Shown here one piece after another: positions 1,020-35,761 of a stretch of DNA of 36,796 bases (positions are counted from its first letter, which is position 1; the number at the start of each line of letters is the position of its first letter). The DNA comes from a virus: the IMG/VR virus record IMGVR_UViG_3300027801_001463, positions 1-36,796 of that record. The stretch is one strand, 5' to 3'. Both the position numbers and the translations under genes were made by a program. Below the pieces are notes generated by a model. It worked only from the letters and a program-made list of their open reading frames with translations. It had not been told where the DNA came from and did not search any database.

Positions 1020-1047
1020 ATTATAGCATATTTCTGCTTCCTGTCAA
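1020..1047 (-). promoter_or_regulatory. sigma70-type promoter embedded in the ketosynthase 3' end
   Basis: TTGACA (1042-1047), 16-bp spacer, TATAAT (1020-1025), preceded by CAAAAC. The TGA stop codon of the ketosynthase (1044-1046) is part of the -35 box. Confidence 0.75.
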
Positions 1048-2198
1048 GTTTTGCTTAATAATAAACTTGCATTAGTTCCACCGAAACCAAAACTGTTACA
1101 TAGTACAGAATTCACCCAATGGTTATCAATAGTTTTTGGTGTATATTTTATATTATAGGATTCTTCTACGTTCTCTATGTTTAGTGATGGAGTGATGATA
1201 TTGTGTTTTAATGATAACACACTGATAGCAGTCTCAATTGCTCCAGCACCAACCATCAAATGACCAAGTTGCGACTTATTGGCAGTGATCCATGTGTTTG
1301 ATAATCCTAAGCGATTGATTGCATCTATCTCAAGGTAATCACCCATTGGAGTTCCAGTAGCGTGAGCATTGATTAAATCTGGTACTTTGTTTTTAAGTGC
1401 AAGTCGCATACAACGTTCAATCTCAGTGCCATCAGGATGAGGTGCGACTACGGCATGAGCATCGTTTGTCATTCCGTATCCTGAAATCTCTGCTAAAGTG
1501 TCGTGTGTTCGTTCATTTGATAATAAAAACAAAGCACCGCCTTCACTTAGAACAAAACCATCTCTAGTTGTTGCCCATGGTCTACTTGCTGTTTCTGGTT
1601 CATTGTTATACTTGGTTGATAACGCCCTTAACTTACATAGTTGTTTATATGAATTAGCATCAATAGTTTGGTCAACAGCACCTGCAATAACATGGTCTGC
1701 CTGCCCAGTTTCTATTAACATACAACCCATAATGATACTATACAAGCCAGATGAACAAGCAGTCATTGACATCAAACTAGGACCAGTAAATCCGTATTTG
1801 ATATTGATATTGTTTGCAATCAAGTTTGGAGAAAATGTATAACTGTTATCCATACCTGATTCATTTGCACGAATAGACTCCAAGTATGTACTGATGCCCG
1901 ATGAAACAATAACACTTGTTCTGTCTTTAGACAAGTCTGTACCTTCGAGTAGTTCACTAGCCAATCCTAATGTCCATTGCATATGCTCGGGCATCTTATC
2001 ACGTTCAATGTCTGTGATGATTGGATAATCTTCTGAATTGAATGTTACCTCGCCCGCAACTGTTGAGCGAGTGTATCTGTCTGGTGTAAATTTTGTAATA
2101 GGACCATAACAAGTCCTATTGGCAGTGATACCTTTCCAGGTTTCTTCTAAGTTACCAAAGGGAGTTAATCCACTGATTGCGTTAATGTATACTGTCAT
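1044..2198 (-). CDS. fabF: Beta-ketoacyl-ACP synthase (KAS II / FabF-like)
   Basis: 384-residue thiolase-fold condensing enzyme that joins an ACP-bound extender to an acyl thioester by decarboxylative Claisen condensation. The C-H-H triad is complete: Cys148 in TACSSG, His279 in NAHATGTPMGD and His313 in KSQLGHLMVGAGA, with Lys308 in the position of the conserved lysine, and the C-terminal glycine loop FGFGGTNAS is present. It is slightly shorter than E. coli FabF (413 residues). The start codon overlaps the stop of the GNAT-like gene (ATGA), which implies translational coupling in the ligase-halogenase-GNAT-KAS operon. With all catalytic residues kept it is probably active. Whether it elongates a fatty acid, a polyene or an aromatic starter cannot be told. 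The natural partner is the phage ACP at 34642-34878. Confidence 0.92.
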   Translation of the reverse strand: MTVYINAISGLTPFGNLEETWKGITANRTCYGPITKFTPDRYTRSTVAGEVTFNSEDYPIITDIERDKMPEHMQWTLGLASELLEGTDLSKDRTSVIVSSGISTYLESIRANESGMDNSYTFSPNLIANNINIKYGFTGPSLMSMTACSSGLYSIIMGCMLIETGQADHVIAGAVDQTIDANSYKQLCKLRALSTKYNNEPETASRPWATTRDGFVLSEGGALFLLSNERTHDTLAEISGYGMTNDAHAVVAPHPDGTEIERCMRLALKNKVPDLINAHATGTPMGDYLEIDAINRLGLSNTWITANKSQLGHLMVGAGAIETAISVLSLKHNIITPSLNIENVEESYNIKYTPKTIDNHWVNSVLCNSFGFGGTNASLLLSKT

Positions 2199-2809
2199 TT
2201 TTTAAATTTAATCTTTTCTTGTGTAGCAAAATCTCTAACATTCACTCGCCAAATATCTTGTGTTGTGTTGTAACTAACGGCATCTTTCTTAATCAATGTC
2301 ATATTATCAGATTCAGTATTTGGTCTGCGTGTACGTCCGTGTGTATGAACCTTGTGCATCACTCCGCCATTATCAACCTCTGGCGAATTAGCAGTTGCGA
2401 TAATTTCAGTCGCTCCTTTTGTCAATGCCCAATCAACTTGTGCTGGCATAATTGCTCTAAAACAAAAGTTGTGTTGCATTTTTCTAAGAGATAACTTCTC
2501 ACTTGCCATTCCACGATATGCTTTAAGTGTAGCCATTCGATACATTATTCTATAGCAATCTTGGTGAAAATGTGGGTAATAATGTGAGCCGCTTATAGCA
2601 ATAATTTTATCACCATGATACACCATATGCCATTGTTCTAAGTCACCCCATTTGCCAAACTTCATTGCTTTTAAACTAGAGTTGTTTTCAATACCTTCAG
2701 CCGCACAGGCTTCACAAAATGCTTGAACATCGGCTAGTATACTAGGAGTATATTCAACTAATTTGAATTCTAAATTGTCAGCACCTGTCCATGTTTCTAA
2801 AACATTCAT
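2195..2809 (-). CDS. GNAT-like acyltransferase family protein
   Basis: About 204 residues from the ATG at 2809, which lies one base after the halogenase stop codon. The open frame extends further upstream, but that part lies inside the halogenase gene and was not used. The layout fits a GNAT fold: an N-terminal strand-helix region, a central strand pair around KIIAISGSHYYPHF, then a segment IMYRMATLKAYRGMASEKLS in the place of the acyl-CoA-binding loop and helix, and a late strand ATEIIATANSP. The Q/RxxGxG/A motif is only loosely kept (AYRGMAS), so cofactor binding is uncertain. Similar loosely conserved GNAT-like proteins occur in marine phages. Within this operon it could transfer the acyl or aryl product onto an amine or alcohol; this is inference from context. 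Confidence 0.55.
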   Translation of the reverse strand: MNVLETWTGADNLEFKLVEYTPSILADVQAFCEACAAEGIENNSSLKAMKFGKWGDLEQWHMVYHGDKIIAISGSHYYPHFHQDCYRIMYRMATLKAYRGMASEKLSLRKMQHNFCFRAIMPAQVDWALTKGATEIIATANSPEVDNGGVMHKVHTHGRTRRPNTESDNMTLIKKDAVSYNTTQDIWRVNVRDFATQEKIKFKK

Positions 2810-2810
2810 T

Positions 2811-4502
2811 TTACTTTTTGGCTTTTGCGTATTTTTTAAGATTCTCCTGAAGAACTTCATCATGTGACTTACCACCAAAGAGTACCTTCTTATGCCACTC
2901 ATAGGCATTAGGCGCATTCACTCCATTACGTTTTGCTGATGTTCGGAGCCAAGCGAATTTTTCGTTTGCTTGTTCCATTAGTTCTGGTTTTGTGTTTAGT
3001 TTAATATCATCATCAAACTTATTCATAGCAACCGCCATCATCGCCCACATAAAGTCTGGAACTCCTGATTCAGCATTGTTGCCAGGAACTCTATATTCTC
3101 TCCAACAGGCTTCTTTATGTTTCATGTCAATACCAAGTTGTTTCTTTTTAGCCCAGAATGGAGTATCTTCTCTTTCTGATAATGTATAGTGAAATAGAAT
3201 AAATCGTTTAATTGTTTCGACTAACCAATCTATGTTCTTGTTGTATGCATGAATTGAACCTCTACCAATAATTTCATCTTTTTCCTCTGAACGAGCAATT
3301 ATTGAACTACATAATTGAAATCCTGCCTGAGCAATACCAAGAATATTTGCTTCCATTGGTTCAATCATAGAACCTGTCATACCAATTGATACAACATTCT
3401 TATTCCATTGAGTTTTGTACTTTCCTGCATCCCAGGACATATGTGCTGGCTCTTGGATAAATTCGTAACCTTCCCAATACTTTTTATATTTCGCTATTGC
3501 ATCTTCTTTAGATATCTCGCTACTATCAAATATATATCCAGACCCCATTCGATTATACAATGGGATAACAAATAACCATCCCTCATCCATTGCGTTACTC
3601 ATAGTATACGGACGAAATTCTTCTTTTACATTCTTGTATTTTATTGGTGCAACAACTATATCTGTGGCTGTTATCTCTGGAAAAGGTATCCAAGGTATAT
3701 CCATTGTTTTTGTTAGTACTCTATAGAATCCAGTACAATCAAGGAATAAATCACCTGTAATTTCTTCACCGTCTTCGGTAACAATTGAGGTAATATACCC
3801 ATCATCATCTTTATTAACATCAGTGATATGCCCATGTAGATGCGTAACACCGTGAGGTATTGCAACCTTGTCTCTGATTATTTCTGGAAATCTATTTGCG
3901 TCAACGTGATATGTAACACCTTGCCAAGTACCAACTAATAAATTATCATCCCAATCATATGGCGCCTTATTGTAATCCATGAGATATGTTGCTTCTTGCA
4001 TATCTTCTGCTTGTTCCCAAGCATTCTTACGACCATCACGTACTAACTGTAACCAATAATCATTCCATTTATCATCGACACCAGGTTGTCCTTTAGAATT
4101 TCTAAATAAGTCTCCCTTTTCCATTGGGTGATATAGACCTGATGTAATATTCTTTTCAGGTAATGCATAAGAGAATCCATAATATTGTTCATCCCATCGT
4201 GAACACCAAAAATGATTAGTTGCGTGGTCACGTTTGCCTTCGATATTCCAACCAACAAATTTATTACCTAGTTTGTAAACAGAATTTGTGTGGCTCATCC
4301 AATCTCGTTCTTCTAATCCAATCTCTTTCATCATTGTACCCAGTTGAGGCAATGTGCTTTCGCCTACTCCGATCGGTGGGATTTTATCGCTTTCAATGAT
4401 AGTTACTTTGATATTAGGATGTTTGACTGCCATCCAGGCTGCTGAGAACCAGCCACCTACACCACCGCCAACTACAACAATACTTTTAACTTTAGACTTC
4501 AT
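2811..4502 (-). CDS. Flavin-dependent (tryptophan-type) halogenase
   Basis: 563-residue FAD-dependent halogenase, close to the length of PrnA/RebH-type enzymes. Such enzymes use FADH2, O2 and halide to make HOX, which passes through a tunnel to a catalytic lysine. The sequence shows the FAD-binding GGGVGG (12-17), a second family block PPIGVGESTLPQL (42-54), Lys77 in SVYKLGNKF aligned by context with the catalytic lysine of PrnA/RebH, and EPMEA in the place of EPLES. The family motif WxWxIP appears as WLFVIP near residue 309, so the second Trp is Phe. No flavin reductase is encoded nearby; FADH2 would have to come from the host. The gene overlaps the upstream ligase by 11 nt and has a GGAG site 9 nt before its ATG. 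A viral relative, VirX1 of cyanophage Syn10, is known to halogenate (iodinate) varied substrates, so activity is plausible and the substrate is open. Confidence 0.93.
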   Translation of the reverse strand: MKSKVKSIVVVGGGVGGWFSAAWMAVKHPNIKVTIIESDKIPPIGVGESTLPQLGTMMKEIGLEERDWMSHTNSVYKLGNKFVGWNIEGKRDHATNHFWCSRWDEQYYGFSYALPEKNITSGLYHPMEKGDLFRNSKGQPGVDDKWNDYWLQLVRDGRKNAWEQAEDMQEATYLMDYNKAPYDWDDNLLVGTWQGVTYHVDANRFPEIIRDKVAIPHGVTHLHGHITDVNKDDDGYITSIVTEDGEEITGDLFLDCTGFYRVLTKTMDIPWIPFPEITATDIVVAPIKYKNVKEEFRPYTMSNAMDEGWLFVIPLYNRMGSGYIFDSSEISKEDAIAKYKKYWEGYEFIQEPAHMSWDAGKYKTQWNKNVVSIGMTGSMIEPMEANILGIAQAGFQLCSSIIARSEEKDEIIGRGSIHAYNKNIDWLVETIKRFILFHYTLSEREDTPFWAKKKQLGIDMKHKEACWREYRVPGNNAESGVPDFMWAMMAVAMNKFDDDIKLNTKPELMEQANEKFAWLRTSAKRNGVNAPNAYEWHKKVLFGGKSHDEVLQENLKKYAKAKK

Positions 4503-5883
4503 TCATTTTCTCCTTATCGCAAAATGTCTTCTTTACTATGTGTCTTTTAATTTTGCCCATCTCATTTCTTGGCAAACCCTCTGTCACAACAATGACATCT
4601 TTAGGCAGTTCGTAGTGCATTAACTTTGTCTTTATCTGCTCTGTTATATAGTATTTATTCATTCTATCATCCGTGCTTTTTATCACGGCGACTAGTTCCT
4701 TCTCACCAAGTCCTCGTTCTCTATACGTAACACATACTTCATCTACTCCTTCACAAGTAAGAATAGCGTTCTCTACTGCTAATGGCGACACATTGTAACT
4801 ATTTACCTTAATCAAATCTTTCACTCGTGTCTTAAATATTAACTCGTTATGTTCTCTCTCAAATACATCACCAGTACACCAATATCCTTCAGCATCAATA
4901 ATTGTTGCCTCACTATTCAAGTATCGTTTTGTTACTGTACCACCTTTCAGCCATAATACACCAAATCTATCTAATTTATGTTCATAAAATTCTGTTACTG
5001 CCAATTGCAATTTGTGTTTAGTATCAGGTTCAATAAGATATGTTAGAGCGGGTACGTGTGTTTCTGTACACCCATAAAGATGTCTGACAAGCGGAACTCC
5101 CTTAGCAAACAATATCTCAATCACTTCATTAGAAATTGCAGTACTGCCGATACTTAACTGTCGGTAATGCGACATGCTATAGTCTTTCCATTTACGAATT
5201 TTTTGCAAAGCAAGTATCATTGCTGGCACTGTTGTGCCGATAGTAGGCTTCCATGTGTTACATAACTCTATATATCGTCTTGGTTCAAACTGTTCAATAA
5301 TTACAGTTGCACCTTTCATTAATCCTGGGAGTGCATATAAGTATAGTCCAGCAATTGTTGATGGAGGAAGTTGTGATAGTATTACATCATCAGATGTTAA
5401 CTCATGTATTGAAATACTATGTAAACATCCTAACATACACCCTGCGGCGCTATGAGTGACCGCAGATGGATTACCATTTGTGCCACTTGTGAATAATACA
5501 GTATATATAGAATTTACATTTTTGGAATATATTAGACCTTTCTCGTGTGGTCTGAGTGCTAATGCATCTTCCTCACTCATTATAATATGGTCGGGTTCAC
5601 ATGCATCTATCGTTTCAGATAAGACATCTTCTGGTAGATTTGGGTGAGTTGGAATGAATGTTATACCTAGGATGTCACAAGCAAGTACCATTCTTACATA
5701 ATGATATTCTTTTTCACTTGCGAATAAGATACTTTCACCAGGACGAACGGCAGTAGACAACACGGCAGCCAATTGTTCTACACTCTCGGTAAGTTCAGTA
5801 TAAGTATATTGCTTATCTTTGCAGACAAGGGCAGTCTTTGACCCGTACTTTCGGTCAAGATTTTTTATAGTGTCAAATATCAT
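4492..5883 (-). CDS. AMP-dependent acyl ligase / adenylation enzyme (ANL family)
   Basis: 463 residues, short for the ANL superfamily (usually 500-550). It should activate a carboxylic acid with ATP to an acyl-adenylate and pass it to CoA or an ACP thiol. Visible core motifs: P-loop TSGTNGNPS (132-140, with Ser where Lys is usual), YGCTETH (near 269), YWCTGDVFE (near 334), the hinge region RVKDLIKVNSYNVSP, and the C-terminal catalytic lysine region NEMGKIKRH (near 447). It is the first gene of the biosynthetic operon and sits directly behind a consensus promoter (5918-5946). No clear Shine-Dalgarno sequence precedes ATG 5883. It could be a stand-alone adenylation enzyme loading the phage ACP, as in pathways where a halogenase acts on carrier-bound substrates. 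Confidence 0.88.
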   Translation of the reverse strand: MIFDTIKNLDRKYGSKTALVCKDKQYTYTELTESVEQLAAVLSTAVRPGESILFASEKEYHYVRMVLACDILGITFIPTHPNLPEDVLSETIDACEPDHIIMSEEDALALRPHEKGLIYSKNVNSIYTVLFTSGTNGNPSAVTHSAAGCMLGCLHSISIHELTSDDVILSQLPPSTIAGLYLYALPGLMKGATVIIEQFEPRRYIELCNTWKPTIGTTVPAMILALQKIRKWKDYSMSHYRQLSIGSTAISNEVIEILFAKGVPLVRHLYGCTETHVPALTYLIEPDTKHKLQLAVTEFYEHKLDRFGVLWLKGGTVTKRYLNSEATIIDAEGYWCTGDVFEREHNELIFKTRVKDLIKVNSYNVSPLAVENAILTCEGVDEVCVTYRERGLGEKELVAVIKSTDDRMNKYYITEQIKTKLMHYELPKDVIVVTEGLPRNEMGKIKRHIVKKTFCDKEKMNEV

Positions 5884-5917
5884 GGTTCAAGTTGCTATCT
5901 ATTGTTGCTCTTATTAT

Positions 5918-5946
5918 ATTATACCATAAAAAAAGAGGGAAGTCAA
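5918..5946 (-). promoter_or_regulatory. Consensus sigma70 promoter of the biosynthetic operon
   Basis: TTGACT (5941-5946), 17-bp spacer, TATAAT (5918-5923) on the minus strand; predicted start near 5911, giving a leader of about 28 nt. The -35 box lies in the loop of the terminator hairpin at 5928-5960 and the T-tract of that terminator forms part of the spacer. Confidence 0.8.
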
Positions 5947-5960
5947 TAGACATCCCTCTT
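5928..5960 (-). terminator. Intrinsic terminator after the MoxR gene
   Basis: Minus-strand hairpin with stem AAGAGGGA/TCCCTCTT, a 12-nt loop, and a run of T (5928-5934). It ends transcription from the MoxR gene. Confidence 0.8.
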
Positions 5961-5967
5961 TCATCTT

Positions 5968-6035: not shown

Positions 6036-7163
6036 TTAAGCGTTATGGGCCTCAATGATTAGTTTACCATGCTTTTTGAAAAACTTTTCAATGCAAGGAA
6101 CTTTACGAGGCTCTAATGGAAGTTTATAAACTTTAAGAGCAGTTCGACCACCTAACACTGTCATTTCAGTATCAAAGTTGTTCATCATAAACTCAAAGAA
6201 GTTATTAGCCATAGTGTATAACTCTTCCATTTTGTTTTTACCATTACGGTCAACGAAGTCCTTCAACTCATAACATAGTGAAGTAGTCAATGAGAACATT
6301 GCTGAAATCTCACGAGCCTCTGTGGTAAGTGTAGTTACTTTACCGCTAAGAATATCAGCAGGAACAGGTAACTTACTAGACATTCCCCTATGAGCCATGA
6401 ACTTAGTAGCAACACCATCACCAACTGTACCAGCGATTAGGTCATGTAAACGACTTTGAGAAATCTCTTCACCTTCTTTAGGTAACATTTCTGAAACGAA
6501 AGTCCAAGAACGAGGTGTAGCGAATGCCCTTGAGGCAGTTCGTGGGTCAAAGTTGAATAAGTCCATCTTATTTGAAGTTAAGAAACCAACAACATCGGCA
6601 CTGATTTTATTCTCTAATGCCCAAGTCTGCCAATCTTCAAAGTCAACACCCATTTCTAAGTGAACAAAACGATTAGCAAGTGGTGAAGGCATACGATAAG
6701 CAACACCTCGGTCACTCTCACGATTACCAGCCGCAACGATTAATACATTGTCTGGCAACACATAAGAACCTAAACGGCGATTAAGAATTAACTGATAAGC
6801 CGCGGCTTGAACTGATTGTGGTGCTTGGTTCATTTCATCTAAGAAAAGAACTACGGACTCATATTGGTCTGCTAATTCTTGACTAGGTAAATCTGAAGGA
6901 GTGGCCCATTCCATGGTACCATTCTTCTCGTTGAAATATGGAATACCTCGTAAATCGGTAGGCTCCATAAGAGCAAGACGAAGGTCAATCATATAACCAG
7001 AACGTTCTTGTGTAATGCTATCTACAATTTCTGATTTACCAACACCAGGAGGACCCCAAATAAACACAGGGCGCTTACGGTTCATCGCATAATTGATTTC
7101 CGCACGAACATCACTAGGACGAACTACTCGGACATCTAAATCATTTGTTGATACTTTATTCAT
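6036..7163 (-). CDS. moxR: MoxR-family AAA+ ATPase
   Basis: 375-residue soluble AAA+ protein. Walker A is GPPGVGKS (37-44), Walker B VVLFLDE (104-110), followed by MNQAPQSVQAAAYQLILNRR and the sensor-1 region IVAAGNRES; a conserved arginine cluster PSPLANRF follows. This is the MoxR pattern, in which the ATPase acts as a chaperone that matures or remodels protein complexes, often with a VWA-domain partner. No VWA partner is visible in the window. MoxR genes are regularly carried by T4-like marine phages, where their role is unknown. It has its own promoter at 7193-7220 and is followed by a strong terminator. Confidence 0.88.
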   Translation of the reverse strand: MNKVSTNDLDVRVVRPSDVRAEINYAMNRKRPVFIWGPPGVGKSEIVDSITQERSGYMIDLRLALMEPTDLRGIPYFNEKNGTMEWATPSDLPSQELADQYESVVLFLDEMNQAPQSVQAAAYQLILNRRLGSYVLPDNVLIVAAGNRESDRGVAYRMPSPLANRFVHLEMGVDFEDWQTWALENKISADVVGFLTSNKMDLFNFDPRTASRAFATPRSWTFVSEMLPKEGEEISQSRLHDLIAGTVGDGVATKFMAHRGMSSKLPVPADILSGKVTTLTTEAREISAMFSLTTSLCYELKDFVDRNGKNKMEELYTMANNFFEFMMNNFDTEMTVLGGRTALKVYKLPLEPRKVPCIEKFFKKHGKLIIEAHNA

Positions 7164-10433: not shown

Positions 10434-10965
10434 CTCGTTTGTTCGCCAATAATGTTTCAGTTTGCATTTCAGATTTCGTCTTAAATGGTCCTATGAAATC
10501 ACATGTATTTAGTGTGTCCAGTTTACCACCATAAAACCATCGCCAGTCACTAGGAAATCTTACTGCGTAGTATCCAGCGGCATATCGTACTTTACTTGTT
10601 TCACTCTTGGTATAAGTTGGTATTTGTTTATCTTTCAACTCTATAGTTTCAGCGTTATATACTACATGTTTAGAGGCATAGCCATCGATTTCTTCTGATG
10701 AAGTATTCCACCCACCACGAGGTCCAACTTTGTTTTCATCAATAATTTTTACAGGACGTTCTTTTGGGTGTAGTATCTTTTCACCGAAATGAGATGTAAG
10801 TTCAGATAACGACATATGTTCATTTAGTATGGCATCAGACAAATCTGATTGTTTTATATTCAATTCAAAATCATCAGACGAGCAACATCGTATTGTTCCT
10901 ATTTTGACTCCTGAATTCTCCATAATCCAAAACTTATCTTTAACTATTTCTTTAGTGTATATCAT
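10423..10965 (-). CDS. Conserved phage hypothetical protein
   Basis: 180 residues, soluble. The C-terminal third has blocks RYAAGYYAVRF, TLNTCDFIGPFKTKSEM that recur, from memory, in hypothetical proteins of T4-like marine phages. There is no catalytic motif I can name. It overlaps the HAD gene by 4 nt and the next gene by 11 nt. Confidence 0.65.
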   Translation of the reverse strand: MIYTKEIVKDKFWIMENSGVKIGTIRCCSSDDFELNIKQSDLSDAILNEHMSLSELTSHFGEKILHPKERPVKIIDENKVGPRGGWNTSSEEIDGYASKHVVYNAETIELKDKQIPTYTKSETSKVRYAAGYYAVRFPSDWRWFYGGKLDTLNTCDFIGPFKTKSEMQTETLLANKRDGL

Positions 10966-11681
10966 TTAAATCTTTTCAGTATTTTCCAAGTTTCTTTCCA
11001 GTTCTTTACATTATGGCACTCGGTGTATCTATATGGTCCATATTCAATAACTTGAGCAATACCATAATCATTGCCACCAGGCTGTATGTTATCACCAAAG
11101 AATATCAGACTATCTTGGAATGTAAAATCTTTTAATATCTGTGCCTTATCTTTGCCTATTTCAATAATATCTAACCCAGTTTCGCCGGCTACCTGCGATA
11201 TAATGCCATATTTCTTAGAAAACTTCTTATTAAATTCATCAGAAATCGTTTGTCTTTCTTTAGATAGTGTATCAAACTCTACATATTTCTTTCGTTGAAC
11301 TCTGTTGGCATTTCTACCAACAACACTAAAGTTTAATAATCCTGGTCTTGATTCAAAATGATTTCCAGTAGCAATATCAAAATCACTACTAATAGATTTC
11401 TTCAGTAAGAAGGCATGTGCCTCACGTGGTAATTCTAAACATTTAGTATTGAATACACATACACCATTCTTATGTTTAGTATTGCCCGAAGAGTTATATA
11501 CACATTCAACTTTTTTGAATAGTTCTTTACCTATCTGTTCTTCAGTTTTAGACATATCACTGCCTGTAACTAAGTATACATTATTCCATCTAGCAAACTC
11601 TAAGAACCATTGGCGAAAATCTTCGTCAATTCTTGCTCTACTTGGAGTGAGTGTACCATCTACATCAAATATATAATTCAT
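10962..11681 (-). CDS. HAD phosphatase, eukaryotic-type phosphomannomutase-like
   Basis: 239 residues. The HAD nucleophile motif is at the N-terminus, FDVDGTLTPSR (Asp6, Asp8). The middle has FESRPGLLNFSVVGRNANR, and the end has IFFGDNIQPGGNDYGIA. This combination (R-x-G-x-LN-S-GR followed by FFGD-PGGNDY) is that of the eukaryotic alpha-phosphomannomutase branch of HAD-IIB proteins, which interconvert mannose-6-phosphate and mannose-1-phosphate. The length fits (about 245-260 in the family). Some phage members may be plain phosphatases. Neighbours with SGNH and SDR folds suggest sugar or glycan metabolism. Its start overlaps the stop of the 5' nuclease gene by 1 nt. Confidence 0.75.
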   Translation of the reverse strand: MNYIFDVDGTLTPSRARIDEDFRQWFLEFARWNNVYLVTGSDMSKTEEQIGKELFKKVECVYNSSGNTKHKNGVCVFNTKCLELPREAHAFLLKKSISSDFDIATGNHFESRPGLLNFSVVGRNANRVQRKKYVEFDTLSKERQTISDEFNKKFSKKYGIISQVAGETGLDIIEIGKDKAQILKDFTFQDSLIFFGDNIQPGGNDYGIAQVIEYGPYRYTECHNVKNWKETWKILKRFK

Positions 11682-12679
11682 TAAGATGGATATGGATTAT
11701 TAAGTATGGATGCCAGTTCATCAGGTGACTTGGCAAGATTTTGTAAATCATGTATGCCACAGAACTTTAGAAAATTCATACCAACACCAGTCTTACTTTT
11801 TGGTATACTATTTTCTGCAATAGTTTCTATGAACTTTACTTTTAAGTCCATAGGTTGTGCAGTTAAGTCAACTAGTTTTACGTTGCGTTCATAATCATCA
11901 CGTACTGTATGCTCTACCCCATTATGGTCAGTCCAGCGTTGTAACATGAAGTTATTCCAATTGAAACCACCAGTCTCTTTGTCTGCAAATGCTTCCATCA
12001 TACCTATTTTGTTCTTGGTACCTTTCTTACGACAACCGGGATATGCACTAAAGATATTATCTGATGTATCACCACGGACACACTTCTCAAACAATGCCCA
12101 CTCTGGGTGAACTTTTTCTTTAATTTCACCAGTCTTCTTCTCTTTTATAGGAGTCATGTTCTTATCATCTTTAAAGAAACCATCTTTAGTAATGATACGA
12201 TTCTGAACACCATCATACATAGTTACGTTGTCTGTAATTAATTGAAAGTAGTCACTATCACTTGATATGATAATATGATTATCATTTGGATGTGCCGCAA
12301 TAAACAAAGCAATCATATCATCTGCTTCTGCTTCAGAGTTTTTTAACATGGTTACGTTTGTTTTTTCATCTAAGAAGTTTACCATATCATCATACGATTG
12401 AAACATGATTTGGTCTTCTTCTTGTTCTCTCGTACTCTTGGCCATTCTAGCGACAACACGATTCTTCTTATATGGTTCATAGAAGTCTTTACGCCAACTG
12501 CGACCTTCTAAGCAGAATACGGCATGGTCTGCATTGAATTTGTTGTAACAGAGTTTAACACTACTAAGCATAATATGATATGCCATACCAATTTTCATAT
12601 CAATGTTAGCACCACGCATTGCTACATGCTTTGCACGATGATACATATTAAATGAATCGACTAAGATGAATGTACTCAT
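11681..12679 (-). CDS. rnh: 5'-3' exonuclease / RNase H (FEN family)
   Basis: 332 residues from ATG 12679. The open frame extends to 12721, but the promoter at 12710-12738 places the transcript start near 12703, and a GTGAGGA site precedes 12679. It is a metal-dependent FEN-fold nuclease like T4 RNase H, which removes RNA primers from Okazaki fragments. Acidic residues are spread as expected: ILVDSFNMYHRA (Asp8), the E-A-E-A-D-D cluster in NSEAEADDMIALF, IISSDSDYFQL, and RGDTSDNIF with the helix-three-turn region. It heads an operon of six genes that are otherwise not replication genes. Confidence 0.88.
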   Translation of the reverse strand: MSTFILVDSFNMYHRAKHVAMRGANIDMKIGMAYHIMLSSVKLCYNKFNADHAVFCLEGRSWRKDFYEPYKKNRVVARMAKSTREQEEDQIMFQSYDDMVNFLDEKTNVTMLKNSEAEADDMIALFIAAHPNDNHIIISSDSDYFQLITDNVTMYDGVQNRIITKDGFFKDDKNMTPIKEKKTGEIKEKVHPEWALFEKCVRGDTSDNIFSAYPGCRKKGTKNKIGMMEAFADKETGGFNWNNFMLQRWTDHNGVEHTVRDDYERNVKLVDLTAQPMDLKVKFIETIAENSIPKSKTGVGMNFLKFCGIHDLQNLAKSPDELASILNNPYPS

Positions 12680-13250: not shown

Positions 13251-14342
13251 CTACCATCCAATTTTCTCCCATGGAACATCTTTGTCGCCAAAGTGTCCGT
13301 ATGTACAGTTTTCACTATACTTGTTAAAATTAAATAAGTCAAATCTATCAATAATTCCTTTAGGACTCAAATCAATATTCTCTTTAATAAACTTCTCAAT
13401 ACTCTTACTGTAACCGTTTGACTCAACATAGATACTCGTAGGTTGTTTAACACCAATTGCATAACTTAATTGAATGTTACACCAATCTGCCATGTTGTCT
13501 GCTACTACATTCTTGGCTAACCAACGTGCCATATAAGCGGCACTTCTATCTACTTTAGTCGGGTCTTTTCCACTAAATGCACCACCGCCGTGAGGAGCAA
13601 AGCCACCATAAGTGTCCACGATAATCTTTCGCCCAGTAAGTCCAGTGTCACCATCAGGTCCGCCAATAACAAAATTACCAGTAGGGTTAAGATGGAATAC
13701 AGTATTGTCGTCAATTAAATCTCCTAATACTTCAGTTGCTGCCGTTTTGGCAAGATTTCTTGCTGATTCGATATTACCTTCTTCAGTGTGTTGAGTACTT
13801 ACAACAACTTGGTCAACACGAGTTGGTATACCGCCTATGTACTGCATACTAATCTGTGATTTAGCATCTGGACCTAATACTCCAGGAACAGAATAATTAA
13901 TTACTTTTAGATGTTTTAATACTTCATGTGCATAATAAATTGGTGCTGGTAAGTAAGCATCGTTATCGCTACATGCATACCCAAACATTAGTCCTTGGTC
14001 GCCTGCACCAAAATCATCGGTGCCTAATCCAATATCACCACTTTGTGCATGAATTTCATTATAAACCTTTAGTCTTTCCCAGTGAAATCCATCTTGCTCG
14101 TAACCAATTTCTTTAACTTTTCTACGAATGATATCATCCACTTCTTCTTTAGAAACATTGAAGTTCTTCACTTCACCCGCTACAGTAACCATGTTAGTAG
14201 TTACCAATGTTTCAATTGCAACACGAGATGTTTCATCGCCTGCCTTAAGTCCTGCGTCTACTAATGCATCACTAATCTGGTCAGAAACTTTATCTGGGTG
14301 ACCATCGCTCACACTTTCGCTTGTAAAAATATAGTTATTCAT
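13251..14342 (-). CDS. metK: S-adenosylmethionine synthetase
   Basis: 363 residues (bacterial enzymes are about 380). It makes SAM from methionine and ATP. The motifs are intact: SESVSDGHPDKVSDQ (His15, Asp17), GAGDQGLMFGYA, GGPDGDTGLTGRKIIVDTYG, and GGGAFSGKDPTKVDRSAAY. It follows apt by 12 nt and belongs to the clamp-DUF465-apt-metK group. In this phage SAM is needed by the methyltransferase-like protein (15974-16546) and the radical SAM enzyme (22121-23389), so the gene probably secures SAM during infection. Confidence 0.96.
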   Translation of the reverse strand: MNNYIFTSESVSDGHPDKVSDQISDALVDAGLKAGDETSRVAIETLVTTNMVTVAGEVKNFNVSKEEVDDIIRRKVKEIGYEQDGFHWERLKVYNEIHAQSGDIGLGTDDFGAGDQGLMFGYACSDNDAYLPAPIYYAHEVLKHLKVINYSVPGVLGPDAKSQISMQYIGGIPTRVDQVVVSTQHTEEGNIESARNLAKTAATEVLGDLIDDNTVFHLNPTGNFVIGGPDGDTGLTGRKIIVDTYGGFAPHGGGAFSGKDPTKVDRSAAYMARWLAKNVVADNMADWCNIQLSYAIGVKQPTSIYVESNGYSKSIEKFIKENIDLSPKGIIDRFDLFNFNKYSENCTYGHFGDKDVPWEKIGW

Positions 14343-14354
14343 TTAAATCCTTAT

Positions 14355-14909
14355 TTACTTCTCTTGTAATATTGAGTACACATCATAGCCGGCGTTACGT
14401 AACTTAGCACCACCACCTAAAAACTCAAGTTCCATTATACTTAATATACATGAAACATTGGCATTGCTTCTCTCTATCAATTCAATAGCAGCCTCAAGTG
14501 TTCCACCTGTTGCTATAACATCGTCTATGATTAATACTTGGTCATCTTTTTTTATTGCATCAACTTGTAAATGTAGTTCGTCAGTTCCGTATTCTAGTTC
14601 ATATTCAGTAAATATTGTTTCACCTGGTAGTTTACCTTTCTTTCTAGCCATTGAGAATGGTATACCAGTCTGTGTACTTAAAGCACCAGCCATTGGAAAT
14701 CCACGAGCATCTAATCCAACTATTTTGTCAAATTTTACCCTACCTTTTGCCAAAAGATAATCATTAAACAATGACATTACATTTTTTAATCCTTGAGGTG
14801 CATTAAAAATACTTGCCATGTCTTGATAGAGAACACCAGGCCTAGGATGGTCTGGTATTACTCTAATCAAATTTTGTATAGTCTTTGGAGTTGGTTTTAT
14901 AATAGTCAC
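14355..14909 (-). CDS. apt: Adenine phosphoribosyltransferase
   Basis: 184 residues, normal length. It converts adenine and PRPP to AMP. The N-terminal DHPRPGVLYQDMASIF and the PRPP loop VLIIDDVIATGGT (125-137) are intact, with GLDARGFPMAGALS as the second family block. Its start overlaps the DUF465 gene by 4 nt (ATGA). Next to metK it would salvage adenine released from SAM by-products or from degraded host nucleic acid; this is inference from the pairing. Confidence 0.94.
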   Translation of the reverse strand: MTIIKPTPKTIQNLIRVIPDHPRPGVLYQDMASIFNAPQGLKNVMSLFNDYLLAKGRVKFDKIVGLDARGFPMAGALSTQTGIPFSMARKKGKLPGETIFTEYELEYGTDELHLQVDAIKKDDQVLIIDDVIATGGTLEAAIELIERSNANVSCILSIMELEFLGGGAKLRNAGYDVYSILQEK

Positions 14910-22120: not shown

Positions 22121-23389
22121 TCATTCTACTAGTTCATCAAAATGAGGGAATTCTGACTTGAATGATATTTTTCGTCTATCTTCTAGTATTGTAAACTCTT
22201 GTGATGCAATTTTCTTCATTTCTGGAGTAACTATGCTATTTAGTATAAGACTTCTCAGTGATTTCAACATAATAACATACTCATCTTTTTTATAAAGATT
22301 AATCATTTCATTTTCCATGTAATCTATTTGCTCTGTTACTGCTTGTGCATGTCGTTTATCTAACATTGTCATCGCATAATGGCTTGGTCCCTCTACATAA
22401 TTAATATGAAACCATACTTTCCTTTTATAGTCTATTGCTTTCATCTTATCGTTTATATACACTAAAAAGTCTTTAAAATATGGTAGAGATAAAGAATTAT
22501 GGGCGCAACCAAATCCCAATACTAAGTTATTTGCTTCTAATGATTCTTTAAAGAACATATCTAAATTGTTATTCCACTGTTCGAAATCTTGACCCCACCT
22601 TACTAACTCTGAACGTCTACCGATTGCTTCGCCAGATAATTGCATAATATATATTATATTTGGAGTATTCTTTACTATCTCAATAAATCTATCAAATTTA
22701 TGTTTAGGAAAACTCATAGAAGTAGTGATATACACCGTTAACTCGGTATCTGGACTTATATTATTATGTACCTTTGATGATAGATAATCTAAAAACACAT
22801 ACATATGTTCTGTAAAGAAAGGTTCGCCACCTAATAAACTGATATTGATATACTTTGTGTCTTTTAGTGTAGTGGTACAATATTCAGAGAATAACTCCAT
22901 CACTTTATGAAATAGTTCTTCATTAGTGTCGGGCTCTCTCACTATTTTCAATTCTTTTTGCCATCTCGTGCTATGTTCTGGTCCACAATAGACACAGGCT
23001 AGATTACATTTGTTTGTTAGGTCTAATTCAATGAAGGTAGCAGGTGTATCAAGGTCAAATAGTTCACCCTCTGGTAAACTCGTAGCCTGATGAGAGTTTT
23101 CCATGTATAATGTTCTATGACTCTCTCCTGATATATCTTCTGTAGCCCAACAACCATTACAATCTGGACAACGGATGCCATTAACTAAGTCATTTTTTCG
23201 TTTTTGAAGAATAGGATGATTGAAAAGAAAATCTACACCATGTTCATTCAGGATGTCCATGTCGAATGTAGTTTCTTTGATTTGGTCTAGTGTCAGGTTT
23301 GTTTTACAGCACCAACTTGCTGTTCTTCTTGGCAATGATATAGTGATATCATTCCAAGTTTTATAACACATTGTGTCTTTGTTATACAC
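22121..23389 (-). CDS. Radical SAM enzyme (twitch-type)
   Basis: About 422 residues from GTG 23389, which follows an AAGG site by 7 nt and clears the upstream gene; an ATG at 23371 is the alternative, and the longer frame to 23479 would overlap the upstream gene by 80 nt. The Fe-S cluster motif is CNLACVYC (cysteines near 128, 132, 135), followed by a glycine motif SLLGGEPFF. A further cysteine group, CPDCNGC (near 74-80), and a CC pair near residue 27 suggest a second metal site. Such phage radical SAM proteins have no known substrate. Context: it lies between four proteins with capsid-like leaders and a 68-residue peptide. Confidence 0.85.
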   Translation of the reverse strand: MYNKDTMCYKTWNDITISLPRRTASWCCKTNLTLDQIKETTFDMDILNEHGVDFLFNHPILQKRKNDLVNGIRCPDCNGCWATEDISGESHRTLYMENSHQATSLPEGELFDLDTPATFIELDLTNKCNLACVYCGPEHSTRWQKELKIVREPDTNEELFHKVMELFSEYCTTTLKDTKYINISLLGGEPFFTEHMYVFLDYLSSKVHNNISPDTELTVYITTSMSFPKHKFDRFIEIVKNTPNIIYIMQLSGEAIGRRSELVRWGQDFEQWNNNLDMFFKESLEANNLVLGFGCAHNSLSLPYFKDFLVYINDKMKAIDYKRKVWFHINYVEGPSHYAMTMLDKRHAQAVTEQIDYMENEMINLYKKDEYVIMLKSLRSLILNSIVTPEMKKIASQEFTILEDRRKISFKSEFPHFDELVE

Positions 23390-23399
23390 TTGAATGCCT

Positions 23400-24635
23400 T
23401 TACTTACGATAAGTTTTCTTTGGAACTCCGTCTTTATCAACTGCATTGCCAAACTTGGCCGCCTGTTTCTTAATTTCATCAGGACCTACATCGACAGTAG
23501 TATTAATGCCAGGAACAATTTTACCTACACCACCAGTTTCAGATACAGTCTTCTTTACAGTATCAAACTTTTCGTCTAAGTCATCATTAAATATATCAAG
23601 AATAGATTCTTTATTGATGCCTCGTGACTTTGCCCCACCTTTTCTACGAATTGATTGAAGTTCGGCTTTAGTATCAACGATTGCTTTCATCATTGTTTGC
23701 ATAACATCTCTATTTAACAGACTTTGTATTTGTTCAAAGTCGCCACGTTCAGCCATCTTAGTGAGTTCTTCTAGTTTACGAACTACACTGGCTTCTATCT
23801 GATTAAGCATAAGACTGCCATATCCTTGAATAAGCACTTCAGGATTATTTGGGTCTTCTTTATTTAATTTATGTATTTCAGATTCTTCTTTTAATTCTTC
23901 TTCGCTAACCTCATCACCTTCCATGTAATGTTTTACACTTGAAATATAATCAGCCGCTTTAGTAATCTTTGCTTGAACCCAACCTTGTAATCCTTCTTCT
24001 TCAGAAACATTATTAAGCATTTGTTCTAGTTCTAAAGAATACTTTGCTAGTCTCTGAACATCTTTTCTAGCCATACTTACTTCGTGGTCTGGTGCTTCGT
24101 TTACATCTTCTTCACTAAACTCATCACTAAAAATTCTTTTAATTAATGAAGGCCTCTTGCCTGCTTTTGGTAGAAATGATGCAGATGATGTTCTTGACCT
24201 AATTGTTGGAGTATGACGTAATCCACTTGGACCGTTCATTCTCCAACCAGACTCTACTTCAAACTCTCTGTTAGATGTTTTGAAATCTTTCTTACGCATT
24301 ACAGTCTTTACAATTAAATCTAATTCATTGTTATCTTTATCCCATCGCAATGCGAATGGCATATTAATATCAGTTGCTAAATCTTTCATTACTGCTTCAG
24401 CATCAGGACCCATCTGTGCGATTGGTTTGCCCCAACGTTTGTATTCTTGTTTGAACAGACGTGTTAGTTCACTACCTGTGATTTGTTCACCGTTGCGTTC
24501 ATCATTCACTCTATCTAGGAAATGACGTGTGAATTCTACATCAATACCAACTTTGCCAAATATTCTATCAGCAAATGTTTCTAACGCTTCTAGGTCAGAT
24601 GATGTAATTTTTTTATCTAATTCGTCTAATCTCAT
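23400..24635 (-). CDS. Conserved phage protein, probable virion component
   Basis: 411 residues. The N-terminal ~150 residues (FTRHFLDRVNDERNGEQIT, LTRLFKQEYKRWGKPIAQ, MPFALRWDKDNNELDLIVKT) form a compact domain I recognise from T4-like marine phages but cannot name. The remainder is charged, helical and less conserved. The start MRLDELDKK resembles the short leaders of its neighbours. The start codon overlaps the previous gene by 1 nt (TAATG). Confidence 0.65.
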   Translation of the reverse strand: MRLDELDKKITSSDLEALETFADRIFGKVGIDVEFTRHFLDRVNDERNGEQITGSELTRLFKQEYKRWGKPIAQMGPDAEAVMKDLATDINMPFALRWDKDNNELDLIVKTVMRKKDFKTSNREFEVESGWRMNGPSGLRHTPTIRSRTSSASFLPKAGKRPSLIKRIFSDEFSEEDVNEAPDHEVSMARKDVQRLAKYSLELEQMLNNVSEEEGLQGWVQAKITKAADYISSVKHYMEGDEVSEEELKEESEIHKLNKEDPNNPEVLIQGYGSLMLNQIEASVVRKLEELTKMAERGDFEQIQSLLNRDVMQTMMKAIVDTKAELQSIRRKGGAKSRGINKESILDIFNDDLDEKFDTVKKTVSETGGVGKIVPGINTTVDVGPDEIKKQAAKFGNAVDKDGVPKKTYRK

Positions 24636-34641: not shown

Positions 34642-34878
34642 TTACTGTTTTTGCAACTTTTTTATAACATCTACGATATCTCCGACAGTACGTATCTCTT
34701 CCGCCTCTTCATCCTCGACTGTAATGTCATATTCGTCTTCGAGTTCAAAGACTACTTCGACAGAATCAATACTGTCCGCGTTCAAATCTTTTCTTAAATC
34801 AGTTTCTAGTGTTAAATCACTAAGTTCCCATTTTAATCGTCTTGATACTACCTCGAACACTTTTTCTTCTATAGTCAT
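34642..34878 (-). CDS. acpP: Acyl carrier protein
   Basis: 78 residues from ATG 34878, which is preceded by AAGGA; the frame extends to 34917 but that part overlaps the upstream gene. It is an acidic four-helix ACP. The phosphopantetheine site is DLNADSIDSVEV with Ser36 (DSI in place of the usual DSL). It carries acyl groups on a 4'-phosphopantetheine arm; the holo-ACP synthase must come from the host, as none is seen here. It follows the A-type Fe-S gene by 10 nt. It is the expected partner of the ketosynthase and acyl ligase at 1-6 kb, although it is encoded 29 kb away. Confidence 0.93.
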   Translation of the reverse strand: MTIEEKVFEVVSRRLKWELSDLTLETDLRKDLNADSIDSVEVVFELEDEYDITVEDEEAEEIRTVGDIVDVIKKLQKQ

Positions 34879-34888
34879 CTCTTTTCCT

Positions 34889-35209
34889 TTATGCTGAAAA
34901 ACTCGAACCACAACCACAAGATGTACCTGCAGATGGGTTATCTATTGTGAAACGTTCACCTTCCAGGCTTCTAACAAAATCGATAGTTGCTTCTGAAAGA
35001 TACATTATACTCATACTATCTACTACTAATTTCACCTCATTTGTTTCGATAACAGTATCATCTTCTGCAATATCATTTTCAAAACCAAATCCATAACTAA
35101 AACCATGACATCCACCACCTTGAACAAACACTCTAAGTGCTTCCATCTTGGCATTGTCTTCTACAATAATTTCTTTGACACGTTCTGCCGCATTTTCTGT
35201 AAAAATCAT
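34889..35209 (-). CDS. A-type iron-sulfur carrier (IscA/SufA/ErpA-like)
   Basis: 106 residues, the standard size. The three cluster-binding cysteines are present: Cys34 in GGGCHGFSYGF and Cys98/Cys100 in TSCGCGSSF. Such proteins pass Fe-S clusters to apo-enzymes. In this phage the radical SAM enzyme needs such a cluster, and host enzymes could also be served. It sits between the HscB-like gene (12 nt) and the ACP gene, as part of a small Fe-S/ACP operon. Confidence 0.93.
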   Translation of the reverse strand: MIFTENAAERVKEIIVEDNAKMEALRVFVQGGGCHGFSYGFGFENDIAEDDTVIETNEVKLVVDSMSIMYLSEATIDFVRSLEGERFTIDNPSAGTSCGCGSSFSA

Positions 35210-35221
35210 TTTATTCTCCCT

Positions 35222-35761
35222 CTAGTGGTCGAATACACCGTGATGTATTCCTTGTTCTACTTCGTACTTCTTATTTGATGCCTCTTCGTGTAGATGAGAT
35301 ATCTCATAAAATCTGTTAATCAGCCCAATTGCTGTCTTGTAATTGTTGTAAGTATCAATACTTTCTTCTATTTGTTCTATAATAAAGGTAGTGTGTCCTT
35401 TTAATTCAAAAATGAAGTTCTCAATTTCGTATTGTAGGTTTGCTCTAGCAAGTTGTATTCTTAAATCAGAAATAAAACTCAAATCTTCTGGAGTTGTACC
35501 ATCACGAAAATCCCATTCATGACCATTGGTCTCTAGGATGTATCTCGCTCGTAATATTGGGTCAACTAACGTGTTGAATGCTCTATGGGCAAATTCTTTG
35601 TGGTCTCTGCCAAGAAATGAGTTATCATCTTTTAATAGATTTAGAATCTTTTTATAGTGCGTAGAGAGACTTCGGATACTAATACCCTGCTTCTCATCGA
35701 CACCAAAGAATTTGAAATAATTCTTTTCATCTAAATTGTATAAACGTTTTGTTCCTGACAT
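35222..35761 (-). CDS. hscB: HscB-like co-chaperone with degenerate J domain
   Basis: 179 residues, the length of HscB (171). NYFKFFGVDEKQGISIRSLS, AHRAFNTLVDPILRARYILE and the C-terminal three-helix region (IQLARANLQYEIENFIFELK) follow the HscB layout. HscB hands the scaffold IscU to the Hsp70 HscA during Fe-S assembly. The HPD motif needed to stimulate HscA is missing: LLKDD (42-46) stands in its place. It may bind IscU without engaging HscA, or use another Hsp70. Promoter at 35786-35814. Confidence 0.75.
   Translation of the reverse strand: MSGTKRLYNLDEKNYFKFFGVDEKQGISIRSLSTHYKKILNLLKDDNSFLGRDHKEFAHRAFNTLVDPILRARYILETNGHEWDFRDGTTPEDLSFISDLRIQLARANLQYEIENFIFELKGHTTFIIEQIEESIDTYNNYKTAIGLINRFYEISHLHEEASNKKYEVEQGIHHGVFDH

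Follow-up and report, generated by a model that had tools for sequence, protein, structure and literature searches.

The window analyzed here, a complete IMG/VR record of 36,796 bases, carries four minus-strand genes (5883 to 1044) arranged as a single operon. In operon order, they encode an AMP-forming acyl ligase of the ANL superfamily (4492-5883; 463 amino acids), a flavin-dependent halogenase-family enzyme with a variant motif, WxFxI (2811-4502; 563 amino acids), a GNAT-fold acyltransferase-like protein, gene 3 (2195-2809; 204 amino acids), and a FabF-type beta-ketoacyl-ACP synthase (KS; 1044-2198; 384 amino acids). The list of open reading frames (ORFs) gives gene 3 an upstream extension (2195-2917); we chose the ATG at 2809, which agrees with the homologs. 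The ligase and halogenase genes overlap by 11 nt (4492-4502), a 1-nt gap (2810) separates the halogenase from gene 3, and gene 3 and the KS overlap by 4 nt (2195-2198). An earlier note on this DNA had described a tight operon with these three junctions behind a consensus promoter, and the ORF coordinates bear out both the arrangement and the junction lengths.

The promoter stands as well. The sigma-70-type sequence assigned to the operon (TTGACT-17-TATAAT; 5918-5946, minus strand) matches at 11 of 12 positions and is kept in five relatives, where the -35 element is conserved and the -10 element is TACAAT or TATACT in four. Promoter-like sites as a whole were not in excess over shuffled sequences in the window (29 versus 27.6). 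Reading of the sequence also gave a terminator-like inverted repeat with a T-run (AAAGAGGGA/TCCCTCTTT; 5928-5961, minus strand) that overlaps the -35 element; its 12-nt loop is beyond the limits of the terminator scan used. In relatives L001, L002, L004, L008 and L023, the ligase ATG is just ~6-7 nt past the -10 box, which suggests that their ligase transcript is leaderless; in the window (5865-5946) there are ~28 nt more between the two.

Downstream, the end of the cassette coincides with the start of a perfect promoter (TTGACA-16-TATAAT; 1047-1020, minus strand; 12/12 match) belonging to the next gene, a phage gene (176-985, minus strand; phrog_2319, 1e-11). Upstream lies a MoxR-like AAA ATPase (6036-7163, minus strand; phrog_1297, 4e-96). 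This is a phage family outside the pathway considered below, and it precedes the cassette in relatives, including those without the halogenase and KS.

The closest relatives of the family B DNA polymerase in the window come from Sinorhizobium phage Phosso (48.7%) and Agrobacterium phage Atu_ph07 (47.8%). These phages have genomes of 469-490 kb, which makes it very probable that the window is part of a jumbo phage; among related records, the largest has 342,607 bases. An alphaproteobacterial host would be a guess from the same polymerase relatives. Elsewhere the window encodes an S-adenosylmethionine synthetase (13251-14342), a phosphomannomutase-like HAD protein (10962-11681), a phosphoribosyltransferase (14355-14909) and a radical SAM protein (22121-23479).

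Active sites and folds of the operon proteins

The ligase matches the AMP-binding domain (PF00501, 6e-42) and its C-terminal domain (PF13193, 5e-6). The P-loop TSGTNG, the A5 motif YGCTETH, CTGD, RVKDLIK and the C-terminal catalytic lysine (in NEMGKIKR) were all found. The 12 full-length homologs keep these adenylation motifs and the lysine with little variation; isolated substitutions include STGD in L017 and RQNDLIK in L012. The best family models are those of fatty-acid CoA ligases, and the protein scores below every NCBIfam equivalog cut-off. The KS matches both ketoacyl-synthase domains (PF00109, 7e-35; PF02801, 7e-24) and FabF chains in the PDB (down to 9e-57). Its catalytic triad (Cys148, His279 and His313) and Lys308 are invariant in 12 sequences. 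It too reaches no NCBIfam equivalog cut-off, with 273.5 bits against the 493.75 of TIGR03150. The window KS differs from those of all close relatives (dS ~1.9-2.7) whilst the ligase, halogenase and gene 3 give dS values of 0.35-0.6 to L001, L004 and L023, which suggests that this KS was acquired in exchange through recombination.

The flavin enzyme matches Trp_halogenase (PF04820, 8.9e-85). The glycines of its FAD-binding GxGxxG motif (G12, G14 and G17) are invariant, as are K77 and E384, the equivalents of K79 and E346 of PrnA, in 14 sequences. The active sites of the ligase, halogenase-family enzyme and KS thus appear intact, in agreement with the earlier statement that most catalytic residues are kept. 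In place of the family motif WxWxIP, all 14 sequences and the protein of contig L083 (below) have WxFxI, with F311 replacing the second tryptophan; the bacterial proteins checked, and five of six from cyanophages or pelagiphages, keep both tryptophans. This substitution means that the flavin enzyme could be an oxygenase instead of a halogenase. By PDB matches (E down to 1e-74) it groups with PrnA, RebH, Thal and VirX1, the last being among the nearest solved structures. All 30 PDB matches at E<=1e-40 are Trp-type halogenases, CmlS appears only at 5e-6, and there is no PltA-type chain among the PDB matches listed.

Neither Pfam, PHROG nor NCBIfam gave a match for gene 3, and none turned up among 50,697 isolate-phage records. 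An AlphaFold2 model (pLDDT 85.6) gave PDB structure matches dominated by GNATs (VIA: Z 11.3, rmsd 3.4, 148 residues aligned). The predicted fold is that of a GNAT, as the label 'GNAT-like' had anticipated, with no detectable sequence similarity to solved GNATs. Where the GNAT pyrophosphate-binding loop would read R/QxxGxG/A, gene 3 and its relatives mostly have RxxA (e.g. YRGMAS). No FeeM- or LuxI-type fold was among the best 50 structural matches listed; FeeM itself has a GNAT-like fold.

Conservation, loss and recurrence of the cassette

Scans of viral contigs returned 30 cassette records, of which 29 have all four genes and one is cut by its end. Gene order and strand are identical in all 30, although many records nearly duplicate one another (the first 24 contain 16 distinct halogenases). 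Linkage in related phages, on which the earlier reading had depended, therefore holds. Halogenase identity to the window protein is 56-95%, the ligase and halogenase are adjacent in every cassette contig, and dN/dS of the cassette genes is 0.08-0.20.

Three records (L046, L047 and L048) have an AAA ATPase 95-96% identical to that flanking the window cassette, and the halogenase and KS are absent; in L046 and L048 the ligase no longer has a P-loop or a C-terminal domain. These losses indicate that the cassette is accessory and that the ligase decays without its partners. L046 also has a 227-residue mini AMP-binding protein (11832-12515) beside its gene-3 relative.

A second occurrence was found in four near-identical contigs (L081-L084, up to 88,646 bases) of an unrelated marine phage that we assigned as T4-like by reading its neighbouring genes. 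Directly after a tail-fibre-like gene, overlapping genes encode a ligase (352 amino acids), a halogenase (498 amino acids; 31% identical to that of the window) and a gene-3 relative (E 5e-5). This triad is without a KS, and no ACP was found in the 88.6 kb. A viral-contig scan with the L083 halogenase returned these four contigs only. In a maximum-likelihood tree, the halogenases of L081-L084, on a long branch, and of the jumbo-phage lineage form one clade (100/100) apart from VirX1 and the other cyanophage and bacterial halogenases; they have in common the motifs YKLGNKF, WxFxI and an EPMEAN-type sequence. The triad is an independent occurrence of the ligase-halogenase-GNAT core.

Adjacent ligase and GNAT genes also exist without the halogenase (jumbo-lineage records and L200), which argues that these two functions are tied together. 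Taken with the T4-like triad, the GNAT/mini-ligase pairs suggest that the ligase and GNAT are the constant core, and the halogenase, KS and desaturases (below) its tailoring parts. Marine phage contigs L091 (2364-5042), L198 and L200 share a conserved module of a gene-3-like GNAT, a mini AMP-ligase without the C-terminal domain, and sulfotransferase-like ORFs.

We also considered a bacterial origin. Scanning bacterial contigs with the halogenase alignment turned up no relative. The top bacterial proteins obtained with the KS alignment were 37-40% identical, mostly from Deltaproteobacteria-type records; among 80 bacterial KS loci, none had a halogenase or gene-3 relative and one had a ligase. 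These scans rely on short peptide patterns, and absence of the cassette from bacteria is unproven. KS and ligase matches among the isolate-phage records were weak (<= ~37%) and seemed for the most part to be bacterial DNA in unannotated records.

Carrier protein, arming enzyme and desaturases

The phage ACP that the earlier note mentioned exists, at 34642-34878 (minus strand; PF00550, 3.5e-13). It is 78 amino acids long when read from an internal ATG (ORF 34642-34917), scores above the TIGR00517 cut-off (72.4 versus 70.45 bits) and has its phosphopantetheine serine in ADSIDS. An ACP is encoded in nine of the ten records searched, with three in the 342,607-base relative. AcpS is the phosphopantetheinyl transferase that arms ACP. 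There is none (PF01648) in the window, and the family was matched above cut-off in two relatives, the 342-kb record G001 (3.4e-19) and the 127-kb window-type record G002 (also L006; 4.5e-18), both with the motifs GIGVDIVE and WAVKEAFVKA.

The window ACP lies outside the operon, beside Fe-S genes (ErpA and HscB-like), and so may serve another purpose. The HscB-like J-protein, ErpA (above its NCBIfam cut-off) and the ACP form a single minus-strand run (34642-35761), which reads as a phage operon for Fe-S assembly and ACP; the 342-kb relative has an IscU-like ORF too (L091, 7198-7578). In L058 and L067 (records G007 and G001), genes for a radical SAM protein, an ACP and a 330-residue protein form an overlapping run. 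A homolog of the 330-residue protein sits directly after the KS in the L013 cassette; for this protein (x332), which links the L013 cassette to the radical SAM-ACP loci, the structure model was poor (pLDDT 57).

In a related subclade (L012-L018, L020-L022 and L075-L080), desaturase-type genes lie between the halogenase, gene 3 and KS; in L019 one is located after the KS. FA_desaturase matches reach 1e-13 and the His boxes are complete. Three of the four desaturase types match this Pfam family (one scores under the curated cut-off); the fourth gives no Pfam match but aligns to the others at 99.4% hhalign probability, with matching His boxes. No desaturase was found in the window-type records G002 (127 kb) and G005 (100 kb). 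The in-operon genes of the subclade point to fatty-acyl chemistry.

A candidate pathway, its alternatives and known systems

It is probable that these genes serve some form of acyl-carrier biosynthesis. The fuller reading, in which a lineage of marine jumbo phages encodes an acyl-carrier-protein biosynthetic operon that works through ligase, KS, GNAT and flavin enzyme steps, we hold with confidence and doubt in equal measure. It builds on the genes, their order and conservation, the active-site residues, the GNAT fold, the ACP in the window and the AcpS of its relatives, from which we infer substrates, order of steps, product and role in infection. Several observations count against it: the ligase and KS fall short of the equivalog cut-offs, the window ACP is apart from the operon, the T4-like contigs gave no ACP, gene 3 has a degenerate GNAT loop and no FeeM- or LuxI-type fold among its listed matches, the window-type records gave no desaturase, and the flavin enzyme could be an oxygenase. 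In brief, the ligase would adenylate an acid (a fatty acid is the likeliest) and load it on to phage ACP armed by phage AcpS. The KS would elongate or condense the acyl chain, to which the His-box desaturases of the related subclade would add double bonds. The GNAT-fold protein would then move the acyl group on to an amine, as acyl-ACP-dependent N-acyl amino acid synthases do. The flavin enzyme would halogenate one partner: most likely a free aromatic or amine, less likely the (unsaturated) chain. Characterized PrnA/RebH-class halogenases act on free aromatic substrates, and the likeliest target would therefore be the acceptor, e.g. an aromatic amino acid or amine. A halogenated N-acyl aromatic amine as the specific product is a tentative suggestion that may well prove wrong. 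Equally speculative is the broader proposal that marine jumbo phages run a virus-specific ACP pathway to a halogenated N-acyl lipid, with the ligase-coupled WxFxI halogenases as a new functional class.

Alternatively, an aryl or pyrrole acid might be activated, loaded on to ACP, halogenated whilst carrier-bound and extended by the KS to a halogenated aryl-polyene-like or signalling product. The ligase, ACP, AcpS, halogenase and KS for this are all phage-encoded in the lineage, and the ligase always adjoins the halogenase. Nonetheless, we consider this route unlikely: the halogenase is of the PrnA/RebH class by sequence, pyrrole halogenases belonging to another class of flavin-dependent halogenase; the T4-like version is without KS and ACP; and the desaturases suggest alkyl chains. 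Furthermore, a search for a PF13561 ketoreductase found none, and the phage is therefore unlikely to build polyenes unaided. Of that note's pathway reading, a real phage biosynthetic cassette with intact active sites and phage ACP and AcpS survives; its analogy to pyrrole-type, carrier-bound halogenation is weakened by the PrnA/RebH-class grouping and by WxFxI in every homolog.

It is similarly improbable that the genes form a membrane-lipid module, in which phage-elongated, desaturated chains enter host lipids and the flavin enzyme is an oxygenase. This would suit the desaturases within the operon of the related subclade, the FabF-type KS and the lack of the second tryptophan of WxWxIP in all homologs, but not the invariant K79 and E346 equivalents, the window-type records without desaturases or the T4-like triad, which has no KS; nor did any gene emerge as a lipid acyltransferase.

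A further minor possibility is self-modification or host interaction, with the GNAT placing an activated (halogenated) acyl group on a phage or host macromolecule, for instance a tail fibre, DNA or a surface glycan. The L083 triad directly follows a tail-fibre-like gene, VirX1-type cyanophage halogenases adjoin tail-fibre-like genes and 2OG-oxygenase-like ORFs, and GNAT-ligase pairs adjoin sulfotransferase-like ORFs. The window cassette is, however, away from recognized structural genes, and the KS, ACP and desaturases better suit a small-molecule lipid. Finally, it is barely credible that the cassette genes are passengers under no selection for a shared function, despite the dispensability implied by loss of halogenase and KS in L046-L048, as this is already contradicted by the selection data (low dN/dS and invariant active sites), by a gene order kept at 56-66% protein identity and by the independent occurrence in another phage.

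Marine phages commonly carry halogenases; by linking one to a ligase, a transferase and a KS, the operon turns the question of their natural targets into a testable pathway. The ACP pathway proposed here would mean that a giant phage lineage produces a lipid or secondary-metabolite-like compound of its own, which might affect host membranes, competing phages or marine organohalogens.

VirX1 and the other cyanophage flavin halogenases are, like the window enzyme, PF04820 proteins borne by marine phages, but they have the canonical WxWxIP and form a separate clade. Their neighbours are another halogenase, 2OG-oxygenase-like genes and tail-fibre-like genes, and the cyanophage and pelagiphage neighbourhoods examined gave no profile match for gene 3, KS or ligase. 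In L085 (2485-5590) and L086 (2509-5620), cyanophage halogenase genes, one of them the VirX1-length gene of Syn10, overlap as tandem pairs. They lie beside 2OG-oxygenase-like ORFs and tail-fibre-like genes rich in glycine, an arrangement that hints that tail fibres may be modified. Roitman and colleagues reportedly described lipid desaturases of cyanophages in 2018; those are phage His-box enzymes too, whereas here the desaturases are interleaved with the four cassette genes in an operon. A ligase, a carrier, a KS and a halogenase also come together in the pyrrole and aryl-polyene/xanthomonadin halogenation pathways; relative to these, the phage operon has the GNAT in addition and no PF13561 ketoreductase was found.

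The N-acylation of amino acids by synthases that draw on long-chain acyl-ACP is an established type of reaction (PMC8762209). FeeM-type and N-acyl tyrosine (stieleriacine) pathways take the acyl group from acyl-ACP and employ a dedicated N-acyl transferase, as proposed here (PMC8762209, PMC12479983), and by analogy these bacterial synthases would offer the closest reaction logic; neither paper mentions a halogenase, whereas the phage operon has one. Phage-encoded biosynthetic gene clusters, which also carry secondary-metabolism-like genes, are rare, mostly from temperate phages and mostly for bacteriocins according to the description of Dragos et al. (2021) given in PMC10452541; the operon here is conserved across a lineage of marine jumbo phages. 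Among 153 cyanophage genomes, 2 have an ACP and 20 a halogenase (PMC10452541). Searches of open-access full texts found no description of such a phage cassette, and so do not contradict the earlier note, which knew of none with an adenylating ligase and a KS. The enzyme families and single viral halogenases are already known. As far as could be checked, what is new is the conserved combination, the phage-encoded carrier with its arming enzyme, and the distinct halogenase clade.
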